A stretch of 64,000 bases of DNA from Pseudomonadota bacterium (GTDB lineage Bacteria > Pseudomonadota > Alphaproteobacteria > Geminicoccales > Geminicoccaceae). The notes under the pieces are model-generated. The model had not been told where the DNA came from and ran no database searches. It saw only the letters and a program-made list of their open reading frames with translations. Position numbers and translations under genes: made by a program. Below, one piece after another: positions 4,115 through 9,923 of this stretch (position 1 is the stretch's first letter; every line of letters starts with the position of its first letter). Location of the stretch: the NCBI GenBank assembly GCA_030549795.1, contig JAUQQO010000010.1:248001-312000 (forward strand), in the 5' to 3' direction.

Positions 4115-4863
4115 GGGTGCTGTTAGCAGCCAAAGGCCTCGCGAAGAGCTTCGGCGCCGTCGTCGCCGCAGCCGATCTCGACCTCGCGGTCGAGGCCGGG
4201 GAGATCCATGCGCTGATCGGTCCCAACGGAGCTGGGAAGACGACGGTGCTCAGGCTGTTGAGCGGCGAGCTGCGACCCGATGCCGGCTGCGTGTGGCTGG
4301 CGGACCGCGAGGTGACCGCGCTTGCCGTGCACGAGCGCGCCCGGCTCGGTCTGGCGCGCACCTTCCAACATTCCTCGGTGCTATCCAGCTTTTCCGTGCT
4401 CGAGAACGTGGCGGTTGCGATCCAGGCGCATGCCGGGTCCAGCTTTCGCTTCTTCAAACCCGCCTCGCCCGACCCCCGTCTTGAGGAGCCAGCGCTAGCG
4501 ATCCTCGAACGGCTCGGCATCGAAGGGCTCGCGGATCGCCCGGCGGCCGCCCTCGCCCATGGAGAACGGCGTTTGCTCGAGCTCGCCATGGCACTCGCCT
4601 GCCGTCCGCAGGTGCTGCTGTTGGATGAGCCGCTCGCCGGGGTGAGCAACAAGGAGGCACAGCGCCTGATCGGCGTCCTCGCGGCGTTGCGGGCCGAAAT
4701 GGGCATGCTCTTGGTCGAGCACGACATGGATGCGGTCTTCCGCCTCGCCGACCGCATCACCGTACTCGTCAACGGGCGGGTGATCGCAAGCGGCTCACCT
4801 TCGGCTGTGCGCGCCGACCCGCTCGTCCGCTCGGCCTATCTCGGCGAAGAAGAGGAGCTGTGA
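4111..4863 (+). CDS. livG: LIV-type ABC transporter ATP-binding protein, LivG family
   Basis: The 250-residue ATPase has Walker A GPNGAGKTT at residues 37-45, a signature region LAHGERRLLELAMAL, Walker B VLLLDEPLAGV, and the C-terminal AYLGEEEEL tail typical of LivG. It overlaps livM by ATGA. LIV importers normally use two ATPases, LivG and LivF; here the next gene is on the other strand and no LivF is present in the window. The product may work as a homodimer or with a LivF encoded elsewhere (inference). Confidence 0.92.
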   Translation: MRVLLAAKGLAKSFGAVVAAADLDLAVEAGEIHALIGPNGAGKTTVLRLLSGELRPDAGCVWLADREVTALAVHERARLGLARTFQHSSVLSSFSVLENVAVAIQAHAGSSFRFFKPASPDPRLEEPALAILERLGIEGLADRPAAALAHGERRLLELAMALACRPQVLLLDEPLAGVSNKEAQRLIGVLAALRAEMGMLLVEHDMDAVFRLADRITVLVNGRVIASGSPSAVRADPLVRSAYLGEEEEL

Positions 4864-4891
4864 AGTGACGTCCGCGCCAGCTCGGCGCGCG

Positions 4892-5407
4892 TCAGTCGAG
4901 CTGTATCGGCCGCGCGTCGTGCAGGCGATAGAGCAAGCCCGAGGGGTCGTCGCGGAGCAGCTCGAAGCGTCCCTCGAGCACGAGCGGATCATAGGTGAAG
5001 CGAATCGGCACGCCAGCCCGAACCTCGACCAGCTCGGTAGCGCCACCGGGAAGACAGAAGGGACAGTTGGGCGGATAAGCCGAAAAGAGGAACTGGGTGT
5101 AGGTCTCGGCCGCTTCGGTGGGGTAGATGAAGCCCGCGAGCCTGATCCGTTTGCCGTCGAGTTCCTCGAGGGCGGAAGTGAATTTTGTTCTGAAATCGGT
5201 CATGCCCGGGCCCTTGGTCTCGTAGACGATGTCGAGCTCGCGAAGGACGTCCCAGGAAACCACACCGGCACGTGCGAGGCGGGCAGGGTCGTGGTCGCGC
5301 ACACCCGGCACCCCGCCCGGCTGCAGCATAAAAGCCGATGTCGATCCTGCCCCGCCGATGAGGAAAAGGAGGGCGAGCCCAAGTGCGCGCATCATGGCCA
5401 TGATCAT
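4892..5407 (-). CDS. DUF3299-family exported protein
   Basis: The 171-residue product has an N-terminal hydrophobic export signal (MRALGLALLFLIGG, cleavage near residue 25), then the conserved DUF3299 core: an F...ALEELDGKRIRLAGFIYP segment, a TQFLFSAYPPNCPFC segment with Cys115 and Cys118, and a following strand-rich C-terminus. The molecular function of DUF3299 is not established. The gene starts three bases after the stop of the His-rich FtsX-like permease (ATGs at 5407, 5401 and 5392 are all usable). From memory, DUF3299 proteins occur beside such permeases in the Vibrio cholerae zrg zinc-uptake locus, which makes a periplasmic metal role plausible but unproven. Confidence 0.75.
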   Translation of the reverse strand: MIMAMMRALGLALLFLIGGAGSTSAFMLQPGGVPGVRDHDPARLARAGVVSWDVLRELDIVYETKGPGMTDFRTKFTSALEELDGKRIRLAGFIYPTEAAETYTQFLFSAYPPNCPFCLPGGATELVEVRAGVPIRFTYDPLVLEGRFELLRDDPSGLLYRLHDARPIQLD

Positions 5408-5410
5408 GAG

Positions 5411-6706
5411 CTAGCCGCGGGCGAGGGTCGAAGCAAGATCGAGGCGGTACGCGCGCACAGCGGGCAAAAGCGCCGCCAGCACACCAACGGCGAGCACCGC
5501 CGGGACGAGCCAGAGCTCCTCCGGCGCCAGGACCCAACCGCTCAGGCCGGCCTCGAAGGCTTGACGGAAGCTGCGCGCGAGCAGCTCGACGAGGAGATGG
5601 GCCAAGGCGAGCCCGAGGACGAGGCCTGCGGCGCTCAACACCAGGGCTTCGAGAAAGAGCTCGCGTAAGACGAGTCCCCGGGTGGCTCCCAGCACGCGCA
5701 TGATGGCGATGTCGCCGCGGCGTTCCTCAAGGGCGTTGGTGAGCGCCACGAACACGGACAGCGCCGCCACCGCCATCACGAGAAGTCCGAACAAGCGCAG
5801 CGTGTCGAGACCGAAACCCAAGATCGCGAGCAGCCGTGCGGCTTCGAAAGCGGGCGAAGCAGCCATAAGGCGCGGCCGCTCGTTGACCAGCCGCGGCAGC
5901 TGCACCGCTGCAAGTGGAGAGCGGTAGCGCACGAGCAGTGCCGTGATCTCGGCATCCGGAGAGGGGCCTCGCTCCGCGTGGGCGCCGTGCTGACGCGCAT
6001 CGTTTGCGTGGTCCTCGTGCTCCGCATGCTCTTCGTGGCCTGCGTCCTCATGTTCCTCGCGATGATGGACCGAGGGTGCGCGCGATGGGCGCGGATGCTC
6101 GTGGACGAGCCAGACGCTTTCGATGGCGGTGAACACGAGGCGGTCGAGAACGGTTCCCGTGGGTTCTAAAACGCCCACAACCGTGTAGGGATGTTCGGCA
6201 TGCGCCAATCCACCCTGAAGGCCGTGGGCACCGATGAAGGTGGCGCCGAGCTCGAGCCCGGTTACGCGCGCGACTTGGGCGCCGAGCACGGCTTCCATCG
6301 GTCGCTGCCAGAGGCGCCCGCGCGCCATGCGCGCGCCGCGCTCGGAAAAGAGGGCGGGCTCTGTGCCGACGATGCGAAAACCGCTCACCGAATCGCCCAT
6401 GGCGAGAGGGATCGCGCTCGCGACGAGCGGGTGGCGGCGGATGAACTCCGCTTCCTCAAGCGGGATGTTTCCGGTGGGGGCGTCGATCTGGAATACCGTA
6501 GCGAGGATGAGCTGCAGGGGGCTACCTTTGGCGCCGACGACGAGATCGATGCCGGCGACCTCGCGGTTGACCCGCTCGCGCAACTGATGCGCGACGAGCA
6601 ACACCATCGTGATGGTGGTCACACCGAAAACGAGAAGGAGAAGATTGAGGAAGGTGGTGGCAACTCGGTCTCGAAGATAAGCGAAAGCGAGACGGAAGAG
6701 ATTCAC
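5411..6706 (-). CDS. FtsX/MacB-like ABC permease with histidine-rich periplasmic loop
   Basis: The 431-residue protein has one N-terminal membrane helix (residues 17-40), a large extracytoplasmic domain, and three C-terminal helices (about 290-430), the topology of FtsX/LolE/MacB permeases; VLGATRGLVLRELF near 340 is the usual ATPase-coupling segment. It starts with GTG at 6706, overlapping the stop of the ATPase gene by four bases. The odd feature is an insertion at about residues 202-244 with eleven histidines among many Glu and Asp residues, a likely metal-binding loop. With the ATPase and DUF3299 protein this resembles zrg-type zinc systems more than lipoprotein export (LolCDE); that comparison is inference. 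Confidence 0.82.
   Translation of the reverse strand: MNLFRLAFAYLRDRVATTFLNLLLLVFGVTTITMVLLVAHQLRERVNREVAGIDLVVGAKGSPLQLILATVFQIDAPTGNIPLEEAEFIRRHPLVASAIPLAMGDSVSGFRIVGTEPALFSERGARMARGRLWQRPMEAVLGAQVARVTGLELGATFIGAHGLQGGLAHAEHPYTVVGVLEPTGTVLDRLVFTAIESVWLVHEHPRPSRAPSVHHREEHEDAGHEEHAEHEDHANDARQHGAHAERGPSPDAEITALLVRYRSPLAAVQLPRLVNERPRLMAASPAFEAARLLAILGFGLDTLRLFGLLVMAVAALSVFVALTNALEERRGDIAIMRVLGATRGLVLRELFLEALVLSAAGLVLGLALAHLLVELLARSFRQAFEAGLSGWVLAPEELWLVPAVLAVGVLAALLPAVRAYRLDLASTLARG
5975..6103 (-). other. Histidine/acid-rich loop coding segment in the ABC permease
   Basis: This part of the permease gene encodes about 43 residues holding eleven His plus many Glu and Asp, in a pattern of EH and HE repeats. 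It lies in the extracytoplasmic domain. Such loops in zinc or nickel transport proteins act as metal ligands or buffers; here that is inference from composition only. Confidence 0.8.
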
Positions 6707-7338
6707 GACGTTCCTCCCAATTCGAGCCTATGCTCGAACCAGGGTGCCAGGCGAGCATCATGGGTGGCGATCACGAGCGCAGCGCCAATCTCGCTCGTGC
6801 GGGCGATCAAGAGCTCCATAATTGCGCGCGCATTGCCGTCATCGAGCGCGGAGGTGGGCTCATCAGCGAGCACAAGACGCGGCCGATTGACCAACGCCCG
6901 CGCGATCGCCACCCGCTGCGCTTCGCCTTGGCTCAACTCGAAGAGACGGGCGCGCGCGCGATCGGCGAGGCCCACGGCCTCCAACAGCGCGCGGAGTTCA
7001 TCTTCGCTGCGGCGCTCGCCCACGACGAACGCAGCCAAGCGCAGATTGTCGAGCACGGAGAGCGCGCGCACGAGATGGAGGGTTTGGAAAACGAAGCCGA
7101 TCGTGCGGCCGCGAAAGCGATCGCGGCGTGCCTCGGGCATGGCGTCGATGCGCTCGCCCATGACCTCGATGCTTCCCCGGGTGGGGAGGAGAAGACCCGC
7201 GAGCAGCTGCAGCAAGCTCGTCTTGCCGCTTCCGGAAGGGCCGACGATCAACCAGCGTCCGCCCGCCGGTACCGACCAATCGTCCAAAGCGAGCACCGTG
7301 CGGCCGTTGCGGACGAGGGCAAGCCCGCGGACGCGCAC
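6703..7338 (-). CDS. LolD/MacB-like ABC transporter ATP-binding protein
   Basis: Walker A GPSGSGKTS, signature LSQGEAQRVAIARAL and Walker [14 protein letters not shown] mark a LolD/FtsE-type ATPase that partners the FtsX-like permease it overlaps by four bases. I place the start at the GTG at 7338 (211 residues): it follows a strong GAGGAGG ribosome site at 7341-7347 and the ABC fold begins at once. The frame stays open up to 7503, but that extension would run through a perfect inverted repeat and into the cyclase gene. Substrate of the complex is unknown; metal-related transport is suggested by the permease loop. Confidence 0.85.
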   Translation of the reverse strand: MRVRGLALVRNGRTVLALDDWSVPAGGRWLIVGPSGSGKTSLLQLLAGLLLPTRGSIEVMGERIDAMPEARRDRFRGRTIGFVFQTLHLVRALSVLDNLRLAAFVVGERRSEDELRALLEAVGLADRARARLFELSQGEAQRVAIARALVNRPRLVLADEPTSALDDGNARAIMELLIARTSEIGAALVIATHDARLAPWFEHRLELGGTS

Positions 7339-7365
7339 CGCCTCCTCGGGCTTCGACGAAGGGGA

Positions 7366-7396
7366 TGCGGAGGGCGGTGCGGCACCGCCCTCCGCA
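7366..7396 (-). terminator. Perfect 15-bp inverted repeat between cyclase and ABC genes
   Basis: TGCGGAGGGCGGTGC at 7366-7380 is exactly complementary to 7382-7396 with one base between, so a 13-bp stem with a small loop can form. It sits 26 bases past the cyclase stop and 28 bases before the preferred ATPase start. On the minus strand it is followed by a pyrimidine-rich stretch with few consecutive T, so it may terminate or attenuate read-through, or stabilise RNA. Confidence 0.55.
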
Positions 7397-7421
7397 CGCG
7401 CATCGTTTCGATCAGCCAACG

Positions 7422-8483
7422 TCAGTCGATGGCCAAGGGGGCACCGATCGAACCCGTCGCCCCCACGATCGGCGCTGGGCTGTAGATATAGGCGAAGACC
7501 CACACTTTATCGCGCACGAGCTCGTCGAGCTTGGCGTTCTCCTGGTGAACGATGCCGTGCCGCGTCTGCAGATACTGGTGGACGCAGAACGCGCAGGCCG
7601 GGTCGGGGTTGGGAACGACTTCACCGGCCCAGGTGTCGGCGACGGTTACACCAGCTTTGACCTCTTCGGCCATCCAGCGGGCGACCTCCATGCCCCAGCC
7701 GGGCTCGCCGCTGTTGTACTTGGCATTGTCTTTTTTCCAGAGCTTTGACCAGCCGGTGTAGAAGAGGATCGCGTCGCCCGGCTCGAACTTGAAGTCCTTC
7801 ATGCCCTGTTTTTCGAGGGCGAGGCGAACATCAGCCATGGTGATCTCGTAACCCGCCTCGAGCATCTCAACGCCCTTGGCGCCGGCGATATCGAGCAACA
7901 CACCACGGGCTACGATTGGATACAGCTTCTCCACACCGAGCTTTTTAAGGCCGTAGGGGTCGGCCATTTCGGCGACGCTGAAGCCATTGTAAAAACGCAT
8001 TTCCGCTTTGTCGCCCGGGCTACCGATCTGAACCCCGATATGGCCCAGGCCGTCGAACTGCGTACCGACTTGGCCGATCTCGGTGGAGAGGAACTCGTCG
8101 TGCCAGACGATCTTGTTGGCGCCGAAGGGACCACCGGTGGGCGAGCCGGGAATCCGCAGGCTGAAGCGTCGCGACCCGAACAAGGGCATCTCAGCATCAT
8201 AGGGATGTGCTAATTTGTAGACCTTGCCCTTGTCGATTTCCCTAATCGCGCGCAGGACAACTTCGGGCTTCGTGTACCAGTTGGTGGAACCTGCTTCATC
8301 GCCCGCCCCCCACAGAGGATGCGGCCACCATTTCGAGCCGAGCGGCGTCTCCATGACGTCGCCGTCGACCCACGGGCGCCCCTTGCAGGCTTTCCAGTCC
8401 TCGGGACTGCAGGCGATCGCTTCACCGGCGAGCGACCCCCCGATCGCCACGCCGAGCGCGAGTAGAAACGCAGTCTTGCGCAT
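7422..8483 (-). CDS. Secreted cyclase-family (Putative_cyclase, kynurenine formamidase-like) hydrolase
   Basis: Start at the ATG at 8483 after GGAGGGGAGG gives 353 residues with a signal peptide (residues 1-25, core TAFLLALGVAIGGSLAG, then ACSPEDW). The family motif is normally HxGTHxDxxxH; here residues 138-148 read QVGTQFDGLGH, so both early His are Gln while the Asp and last His remain. Further conserved pieces are FEPGDAILFYTGW near 236 and HQYLQTRHGIVHQEN near 311. Family members are metal-dependent amide or lactone hydrolases, but the secreted subgroup has no firm function. It is followed by a hairpin and then the His-rich ABC system. Confidence 0.82.
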   Translation of the reverse strand: MRKTAFLLALGVAIGGSLAGEAIACSPEDWKACKGRPWVDGDVMETPLGSKWWPHPLWGAGDEAGSTNWYTKPEVVLRAIREIDKGKVYKLAHPYDAEMPLFGSRRFSLRIPGSPTGGPFGANKIVWHDEFLSTEIGQVGTQFDGLGHIGVQIGSPGDKAEMRFYNGFSVAEMADPYGLKKLGVEKLYPIVARGVLLDIAGAKGVEMLEAGYEITMADVRLALEKQGMKDFKFEPGDAILFYTGWSKLWKKDNAKYNSGEPGWGMEVARWMAEEVKAGVTVADTWAGEVVPNPDPACAFCVHQYLQTRHGIVHQENAKLDELVRDKVWVFAYIYSPAPIVGATGSIGAPLAID

Positions 8484-8671
8484 CGTGCCTCCCCTCCTGC
8501 ATCCGACATTCGTCGTGCCATCGATCTTGTACGCATCGCCGAGGGTCGGTGCAACCGACACGCACCCTCTGGCCGTGCAACGCAGGCCGGGGATTTTCGT
8601 CCATCTTGCTTGGTTCTCGTGTGGACGCTTGTGGAAACAGGCGCGAGCGTGTGCGGCATCGGAGAAAAAGA

Positions 8672-9463
8672 ATGGCTCGGCTCGTGCTGGTCGTCGGTCC
8701 GCCGGCGATCTGTGCCGGCTCCTTGCGGGCCTGGTTGGCTTTGCGGCGGGCGGGCGCGTCTTTCGAGCTCGCCGTGTGGGAGAGCGTTGCCAAAACTGCC
8801 AAGGCCGCGGGCGCTCGGGCTTTTCCTGTGCGCCCTCCCGTCCTCCTCGTCGACGAAGTCACGATCTGGGGCGCGCTCGCGATTGGCGAGTTCGCAGCCG
8901 AGCAAGTGCGCGAGCTCTTGCCTCTCGATCCCATCGAACGCGCGATCGCCCGCGCGATTGCCCATGAATTTGTAAACGATCTTCGCGATCTTGAAACCTT
9001 TCTGCCCTTCGATTTAAATCATGTGTTCGATCCACCCGGCAAGCTTCTGCGCGGGGTGGAGCGCGATCTCGCTCGTTTCCTCGAGCTCGTCTCGGTCTGT
9101 CGCGGCCGTTGGTCTTCGGCCGGCCCCTTTTTGTTCGGGCCCTTCACGCTTGCTGATGCCGCTGCCGCTCCGATCTGCTGTGCGCTCGCGAACAACCGTA
9201 TGCCTCTCGTCGGCGAGGCACGGGCTTATGTCGAGACGATCACGAACTTGCCCGAGCTCGCGCAATGGGTGCAGCTCGCCCAAAAGGGGCTCGAGGCGGA
9301 AGCGGTGGGCGAGCCCGGCCGCGCGCAAGCTGAGGAGGATGAGCCGGGCCCAAGGACGGCAGGCGCAGCAAGCGCGCTCGAGCCGCGTGAGCGCCGGAGC
9401 GACGAGGCGGCTTCCCGATCCTTCCTCAAGCCCATAGGGACCGGAACTCGGCGACGACGCTGA
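8672..9463 (+). CDS. Glutathione S-transferase-like protein
   Basis: From the ATG at 8672 (after GGAGAAAAAG) the 263-residue product shows a weak thioredoxin-like N-half (MARLVLVVGPP...ICAGSLRAWLALRRAGASFELAVWES, with PPVLLVDEVTIWGALAIGEF resembling the GSH-site segment) and a helical C-half with GPFTLADAAAAPICCALANNR, a typical GST C-domain motif. The last 50 residues are polar and low in complexity, and the gene overlaps rppH tail to tail by 38 bases. Substrate unknown. Many proteobacterial GST paralogues conjugate or reduce electrophiles in the cytoplasm. Confidence 0.75.
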   Translation: MARLVLVVGPPAICAGSLRAWLALRRAGASFELAVWESVAKTAKAAGARAFPVRPPVLLVDEVTIWGALAIGEFAAEQVRELLPLDPIERAIARAIAHEFVNDLRDLETFLPFDLNHVFDPPGKLLRGVERDLARFLELVSVCRGRWSSAGPFLFGPFTLADAAAAPICCALANNRMPLVGEARAYVETITNLPELAQWVQLAQKGLEAEAVGEPGRAQAEEDEPGPRTAGAASALEPRERRSDEAASRSFLKPIGTGTRRRR

Positions 9464-9923
9464 GATAAACGCAGCGCTTGAAGGGAACGACCAGGGAGGG
9501 AAGCGCTTCCGGTTCCACCCAGCGCCAGGCGACGAACTCGTGGTGCGGACCGTCGAGTTTGATCTCGTCCTCGGTACCGAGGAAGCGCAAGGCTACCCAC
9601 TTCTGGGTCTGCCCCCGGTAGCGGCCGCCCCACATGCGGGCGGCGATCGCAGGCGGCAGATCATAGGCGCGCCAGACCGCACTCTCCTTTAAAAAGGCGA
9701 CATGGTCGGTGCCGACCTCCTCGCGCAGTTCCCTAAGCGCCGCCTGCACCACCGTCTCGCCGGGGTCGATGCCACCTTGCGGCATCTGCCAGGCCTCGAC
9801 CTCCACATCCGCCCGCCGGCCCACGAACACCTTGCCGTGTGGACCGAGCAGAAAGATGCCCACGCAGGGGCGATAGCCGGGATGCGGCTCCGTACTCTCG
9901 CGACAAGGGCTTTTCTGGTTCAT
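9426..9923 (-). CDS. rppH: RNA pyrophosphohydrolase (Nudix), RppH
   Basis: The 165-residue product from the ATG at 9923 contains the Nudix box beginning GGIDPGETVVQAALRELREE and the RppH markers YRPCVGIFLLGPHGKVFVGRR at the start, WQMPQGG, and YRGQTQKWVALRF. RppH removes pyrophosphate from 5'-triphosphate ends of mRNA and so opens them to decay. It overlaps the deacetylase gene by ATGA; the order ctpA, divergent deacetylase, rppH is common in Alphaproteobacteria and supports the call. An upstream in-frame extension to 10013 lies inside the previous gene and is not used. Confidence 0.93.
   Translation of the reverse strand: MNQKSPCRESTEPHPGYRPCVGIFLLGPHGKVFVGRRADVEVEAWQMPQGGIDPGETVVQAALRELREEVGTDHVAFLKESAVWRAYDLPPAIAARMWGGRYRGQTQKWVALRFLGTEDEIKLDGPHHEFVAWRWVEPEALPSLVVPFKRCVYLSVVAEFRSLWA

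Follow-up and report, generated by a model that had tools for sequence, protein, structure and literature searches.

The gene trio at positions 4892 to 7338 of the window, by which we mean the whole analysed stretch of 64,000 nucleotides from a bacterium of the family Geminicoccaceae, probably encodes a machine for zinc acquisition that has the MacB/LolCDE (type VII) ABC fold and is a sister of the ZrgBCE core, and we put the probability of this reading at about 60%. Three lines of evidence led us to it, namely, the zinc-gene context of the relatives, a conserved histidine site and the type VII fold, which together would fit a periplasmic, ATP-driven zinc-acquisition device with an optional loop as its collector. 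The set, called type B hereafter, is most likely a little-studied variant related to the known Zrg zinc-uptake systems, and a literature search that included DUF3299 and the combination of Zur, znuA and FtsX-like returned no paper appearing to treat it. An earlier note on this DNA, made from the sequence alone, had proposed a metal-handling machine. Its kinship to the zrg locus, its zinc link and its lack of DUF2796 held, while a constant histidine loop, a binding protein that is always absent and a fold remote from LolC/E and MacB did not.

Gene layout and domain content

The trio is located on the minus strand, from 7338 down to 4892, in the order ATPase, permease, DUF3299 protein. The first gene (6703..7338) codes for a LolD-like ABC ATPase, which matched Pfam ABC_tran with 111.5 bits and had LolD as its best NCBIfam model, at 175.7 bits and thus under that model's cut-off of 307.75; the most plausible start is the GTG at 7338, with longer in-frame alternatives at 7419 (TTG) and 7503 (GTG). 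The permease gene (5411..6706, 431 amino acids) yielded 52.1 bits for MacB_PCD and 56.6 bits for FtsX, and the third gene (4892..5407, 171 amino acids) encodes an exported, ZrgE/PA4066-like protein of the CPFC variant, with 27.5 bits for PF11736 (cut-off 22). A 4-bp overlap joins the ATPase gene to the permease gene, and only 3 bp lie between the latter and the DUF3299 gene, a spacing that suggests coupled translation. Open reading frames and Pfam models therefore bear out the original description of three coupled genes, and the position of the ATPase gene 5′ of the permease gene is kept across type-B loci. Open reading frames that overlap the trio on the plus strand are mechanical, since it is the minus-strand products that are conserved.

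A terminator-like hairpin (7356..7406, minus strand; a 25-nt inverted repeat at 84%, with a stem perfect over 14 to 15 bp) occupies the gap that separates the ATPase gene from the cyclase gene upstream of it. The congeners carry similar hairpins of other bases at the same place, one of them followed by a T run, and the element is probably the terminator of the cyclase gene. All six genomes examined in the genus have the same surroundings, with the cyclase gene upstream and then genes for a NUDIX protein, CtpA and phosphoglycerate mutase. Since none of these neighbors has a link to zinc, we counted them against a zinc role.

The permease has a type VII ABC fold

The permease model, which is of modest quality (pLDDT 65.8), matched LolE, MacB, HrtB and FtsX over the full length in Foldseek/VIA-align comparisons, with Z scores of 23.2 against 5xu1_M (rmsd 6.2, 350 aligned residues) and 20.8 against LolE (rmsd 9.1, 350 aligned residues). 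With its MacB_PCD and FtsX domains, this full-length match, four helices, a large domain between TM1 and TM2 and an FtsX-type C-terminus, the protein falls into the type VII (MacB/FtsX/LolC) superfamily. Thus, the remark that the permease is far from LolC/E and MacB is correct for the sequence but not for the fold, which matched LolE, MacB and HrtB from end to end. The best fold match of the DUF3299 protein was 4hsp/PA4066 (E 1.1e-5), and there were weak matches to OB-fold proteins.

We then compared the trio with known systems. LolCDE has the same permease fold and the same kind of ATPase, but the trio has a single permease gene, reached 31 bits with the LolCE model TIGR02212 against a cut-off of 362.45, and possesses metal-type residues and a DUF3299 partner. 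MacB and the heme exporter HrtBA also have this permease fold, and HrtBA is a type VII ABC system with a metal-bearing ligand; in MacB, however, the ATPase is part of the same chain and MacA/TolC are the partners, whereas the trio consists of separate genes with no adaptor among the neighbors. ZnuABC has the zinc context in common with type B, but its ABC-3 permease (PF00950) is unrelated to the MacB-type permease of the window, and the window's genome holds a complete znuA-znuCB-zur set of its own. ZnuGHI of Caulobacter, a Zur-regulated ABC system that consists of three genes and has no binding protein (PMC4176598), was rejected as the same system because its permeases are of the ABC-2 type and not of the MacB fold. 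Close to one type-B trio (L092, 1763-6153) there are genes for an ABC-2 type permease, an ATPase and a TonB-dependent receptor, an arrangement that recalls znuGHI-znuK of Caulobacter.

Type B is a sister clade of the Zrg permeases

Relatives were collected from the order, class and phylum to which the window belongs and from named genomes. In the permease tree, 36 sequences including that of the window formed the type-B clade (support 99/98), and its sister was a clade of ZrgB-type permeases from Vibrio and Pseudomonas, designated type A (support 100/99). A gap in profile score separated the two (at least 435 bits for type B versus at most 302 bits for type A), and so did sequence motifs: VGARSGSVQLLLYSVFRIGNATNN in type-A permeases, with DUF3299 proteins of the CIHVPPPPPNQ kind, versus VGAKGSPLQLILS in type-B permeases, with CPFC, CPFH or CPYH replacing that motif in the DUF3299 proteins. 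The trio was intact in 18 of 20 further loci of the class and 8 of 10 further loci of the phylum, and both phylum exceptions were on contigs shorter than 4 kb.

The type-A system ZrgABCDE of Vibrio (PA4063-PA4066 of Pseudomonas) has the ATPase, MacB-fold permease and DUF3299 genes in the same order as the trio, three histidines and D105 of the permease in common with type B, and a zinc (Zur) context too. In V. parahaemolyticus, zinc deficiency raised the expression of its operon 76-206-fold (PMC9817125), and a V. cholerae znuA mutant needs ZrgA for normal growth in zinc-deficient conditions (PMC9820375), while the P. aeruginosa relative was assigned to pyochelin-cobalt export (PMC11481552). 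By contrast, the window's trio belongs to the other clade, has no DUF2796/ZrgA and has no Zur box in the window, and a variable His-rich loop, absent from all 11 type-A permeases, occurs in type B. On the first three counts the trio is not a Zrg system, yet it most likely works like the Zrg core.

All eight type-A-bearing relatives that were tested have ZrgA (PF10986) in their genomes, as do three more; one genome (G155) had a type-A-scoring permease and no PF10986 match. The same model, positive in eight relatives, detected no DUF2796 gene in the window's genome, five congeners or a Ramlibacter genome. Of 29 further type-B genomes, 26 were negative as well, and the three with ZrgA also carry a type-A permease. 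Type B is thus a separate sister clade normally without DUF2796, and the absence is the rule rather than a loss in the window's genome. The missing DUF2796 partner, noted earlier at the locus, is accordingly missing genome-wide, and the proposed kinship to the Vibrio zrg locus was upheld in that type B is sister to the ZrgB clade and both have the DUF3299 partner. A zrg locus that has lost DUF2796, in turn, was rejected as a description of the trio. A third, more distant permease clade, type C, was observed in the window's family (L026, L027, L029); there, a short DUF3299-like gene precedes the permease gene instead of following it.

Conserved histidines and the DUF3299 cysteine

Three permease histidines, H161 (6224..6226), H169 (6200..6202) and H202 (6101..6103; all minus strand), were present in 35 of 36 type-B and 11 of 11 type-A permeases. 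They lie at the root of the His-rich loop, which begins directly after H202, and their conservation is far above that of the loop itself. They were not seen in a weak alignment with the lipoprotein transporter LolF. The sole exception among the type-B proteins (L089, G332:C6:253000-271000; permease 8335-9555) has R, Q and Q at these positions, and in its genome, G332, rated 100% complete, no DUF3299 gene was found either with Pfam or with a sensitive type-B profile, which was positive in controls. This single case, an anecdote, suggests that the triad and the DUF3299 protein share one function.

The CPFC motif comprises residues 115-118 of the DUF3299 protein (5054..5065, minus strand). Alignment of homologues revealed that C115 is invariant in 19 type-B proteins and in type A as well, and that position 118 in type B is Cys, His or another residue. 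The loop, the triad and the CPFC motif are candidate metal-binding sites. Additional DUF3299 copies were observed near type-B trios in L139 (9139-10738, three in tandem), L090 (12382-12849) and L091 (1162-1629).

A recurrent His-rich loop at one fixed site

The disordered His/Asp/Glu-rich loop of the window's permease (residues 202-243; 5978..6103, minus strand) holds 11 His in 42 residues, the highest content of all 44-residue segments of the protein, and this count agrees with the eleven His in about 43 residues first reported. In the AlphaFold model, residues 205-251 have a pLDDT under 50. Across the 36 type-B homologues, the loop site consists of 17% His, 16% Asp and 15% Glu, compared with 2% His in the rest of the proteins, which argues against a chance tract. 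The loop is always located between H202 and T255 and varies from 11 to 97 residues in length and from 0 to 21 in His content; at least five His are present there in 18 of the 36 type-B permeases, and none of the 11 type-A permeases has a His-rich loop. On a permease tree built without the loop columns, the loop state changed at least eight times. A gene of the cation-efflux (CDF) family was observed just upstream of one type-B trio (L099, 10442-11044) whose loop has about 20 His.

Among the six genomes of the genus, a His-rich loop was found only in the window's species, in G022 and, weaker, in G021, and in the congeners G020, G023 and G024 the loop is down to 15-19 residues with 1-2 His. As these three (loci L021-L023) keep the same neighborhood, the loop was rejected as a constant hallmark of the system. 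The earlier note had named loop-less relatives in an unchanged neighborhood, with a lipid or lipoprotein role, as evidence against its proposal; such relatives do exist, three of the six congeners, but there is no sign that the trio handles lipids or lipoproteins. The His loop is thus an acidic-histidine expansion that recurs at one fixed site and can be dispensed with.

We also asked how the loop is distributed relative to binding-protein genes. Where the locus includes ZrgA or ZnuA, none of 13 permeases has a His-rich loop, versus 18 of 33 among the type-A and type-B permeases of loci without either gene (Fisher p = 0.0005). Within type B alone, the numbers are 0 of 3 versus 18 of 32 (p = 0.10), and independent pairs were uninformative. 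The association is mostly one deep split, which weakens the reading of the loop as a replacement, and once relatedness was considered we rejected it as proof. That the type-B loop rooted at H202 replaces ZrgA/ZnuA as collector, making the system a one-piece ATP-driven periplasmic zinc scavenger, is in our view a doubtful idea.

Zinc genes beside type-B trios

In seven independent type-B lineages, a ZnuA gene, a Fur/Zur gene or both adjoin the trio, with zinc-context genes counted only above the Pfam cut-off, so that Fur-like genes of L092 and L136, which score below it, were left out. The clearest case is L084, in which zur, znuC and znuB diverge from a znuA-ATPase-permease-DUF3299 operon, znuA and the ATPase gene sharing 4 bp, and the two units flank a perfect Zur box, AAATGTTATACTATAACATAA. 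The same four genes lie behind Zur boxes in L095, and znuA is upstream of the trio on the same strand in L138. Fur-family genes adjoin the trio in L087, L088, L096 (and its close relatives L097 and L100) and L134, and a Zur-box-like site with one mismatch lies upstream in L139. By a rough estimate, assuming a handful of such genes per genome and four genes within reach per locus, far fewer than one lineage would be expected by chance. These data tie the type-B family to zinc acquisition, and the context favors acquisition over efflux. Next to the znuA-trio operons of L084 (3530-4687) and L095 (11207-12376) there are genes for porin-like proteins (PF13609) that are related to each other and His-rich at the N-terminus, with Zur boxes nearby; these proteins could possibly be outer-membrane zinc channels.

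For the window's own copy, the search near the trio yielded no Zur box (7 weak matches versus 12 expected by chance), and the trio loci of the congeners contained none at 0-1 mismatch; both results were counted against a zinc role. A complete znuA/znuCB/zur set elsewhere in the window's genome was counted likewise: on contig C6 (L080, G000:C6:24000-36000), znuA diverges from znuC-znuB-zur at 4431-7594, with a Zur box, CGTTATAGGATAACG, at 5418 by znuA/znuC. Hence, the Zur-box check suggested earlier failed at the window's trio and succeeded at znuA/znuC in the same genome and at the trios of two type-B relatives. Similarly, the statement that no binding protein accompanies the trio is valid for the window, in whose genome ZnuA is encoded only on another contig, C6, but not for the three other type-B lineages with znuA directly upstream on the same strand. 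The suspected metal link is now supported by the ZnuA, Fur/Zur and Zur-box context of these relatives; by kinship, the window's copy would also be linked to zinc, and we infer that it keeps the same role despite having no Zur box.

Discussion

Type VII ABC proteins move their periplasmic domain upon ATP turnover, and the favored zinc-acquisition reading can be put as a working model on that basis. The complex would contain two copies each of the ATPase and the four-helix permease, and ATP binding and hydrolysis would drive the movement of its large periplasmic domain. In the periplasm, the disordered His/Asp/Glu loop may serve as a low-affinity collector that raises local zinc and concentrates it beside the H161/H169/H202 site at the loop root. 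The histidine site might have its periplasmic partner in the DUF3299 protein, which carries the conserved Cys and, in most cases, a second Cys or a His three positions further along. The ATP-driven stroke would release zinc either into the cell or to a carrier in the periplasm, for example ZnuA. Both the assembly of the three products and the zinc handover are inferred. No type VII ABC protein of established function is known to import an ion, and we counted this against zinc import.

A sub-variant that overlaps with this model involves no membrane crossing: ATP strokes would strip His-rich sinks and load ZnuA or periplasmic zinc enzymes. It accords with the periplasmic site of action of other type VII members, LolCDE and FtsEX among them, and with znuA being directly upstream of the trio in three lineages; however, ZnuA is not nearby in many type-B loci, and the type-A system of V. 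cholerae is important in a strain deleted for znuA (PMC9820375), so that there, at least, it has no need of ZnuA. We regard this loading device as possible but on the whole unlikely. The trio could also be an exporter, a split MacB pump for excess metal or for a metal-chelator complex (a metallophore with zinc or cobalt), as proposed for PA4063-PA4066, and the MacB fold of the permease and the pyochelin-dependent cobalt accumulation upon deletion of the P. aeruginosa type-A system (PMC11481552) agree with this. Yet relatives have the trio in one operon with znuA and downstream of a Zur box, which means that it would be made at zinc scarcity, although the P. aeruginosa operon is also under Zur control, and neither a MacA-type adaptor nor TolC is in the conserved gene set, so that we consider export improbable.

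Further from zinc, the trio may be a LolCDE-like machine of the envelope that handles lipoproteins, lipids or peptides, the His loop being an ornament or an accidental expansion. LolE among the best structural matches, an ATPase closest to LolD and the loss of the loop in close relatives are in keeping with it, but the single permease in place of a LolC/LolE pair, the LolCE score (31 versus 362), the histidines not seen in the weak LolF alignment, the zinc-locus context and the DUF3299 partner make this quite improbable. We give the least credence, and very little, to a chance His-rich tract in an unrelated housekeeping transporter with a merely apparent metal link: although half of the type-B permeases have no such loop and the window has no Zur box, many families show an expansion in H, D and E at one and the same site, with eight state changes on the tree, and seven lineages show a zinc-locus context.

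The role of MacB-type proteins such as ZrgBC in zinc nutrition is disputed, with uptake advocated in Vibrio and export of metallophore complexes in Pseudomonas. Type B is a cleaner case, as it has no ZrgA, sometimes has ZnuA in the operon, has naturally gained and lost its loop many times and includes one protein without the triad. Through this natural variation, the roles of the loop, the triad, the DUF3299 protein and the binding protein become separable.
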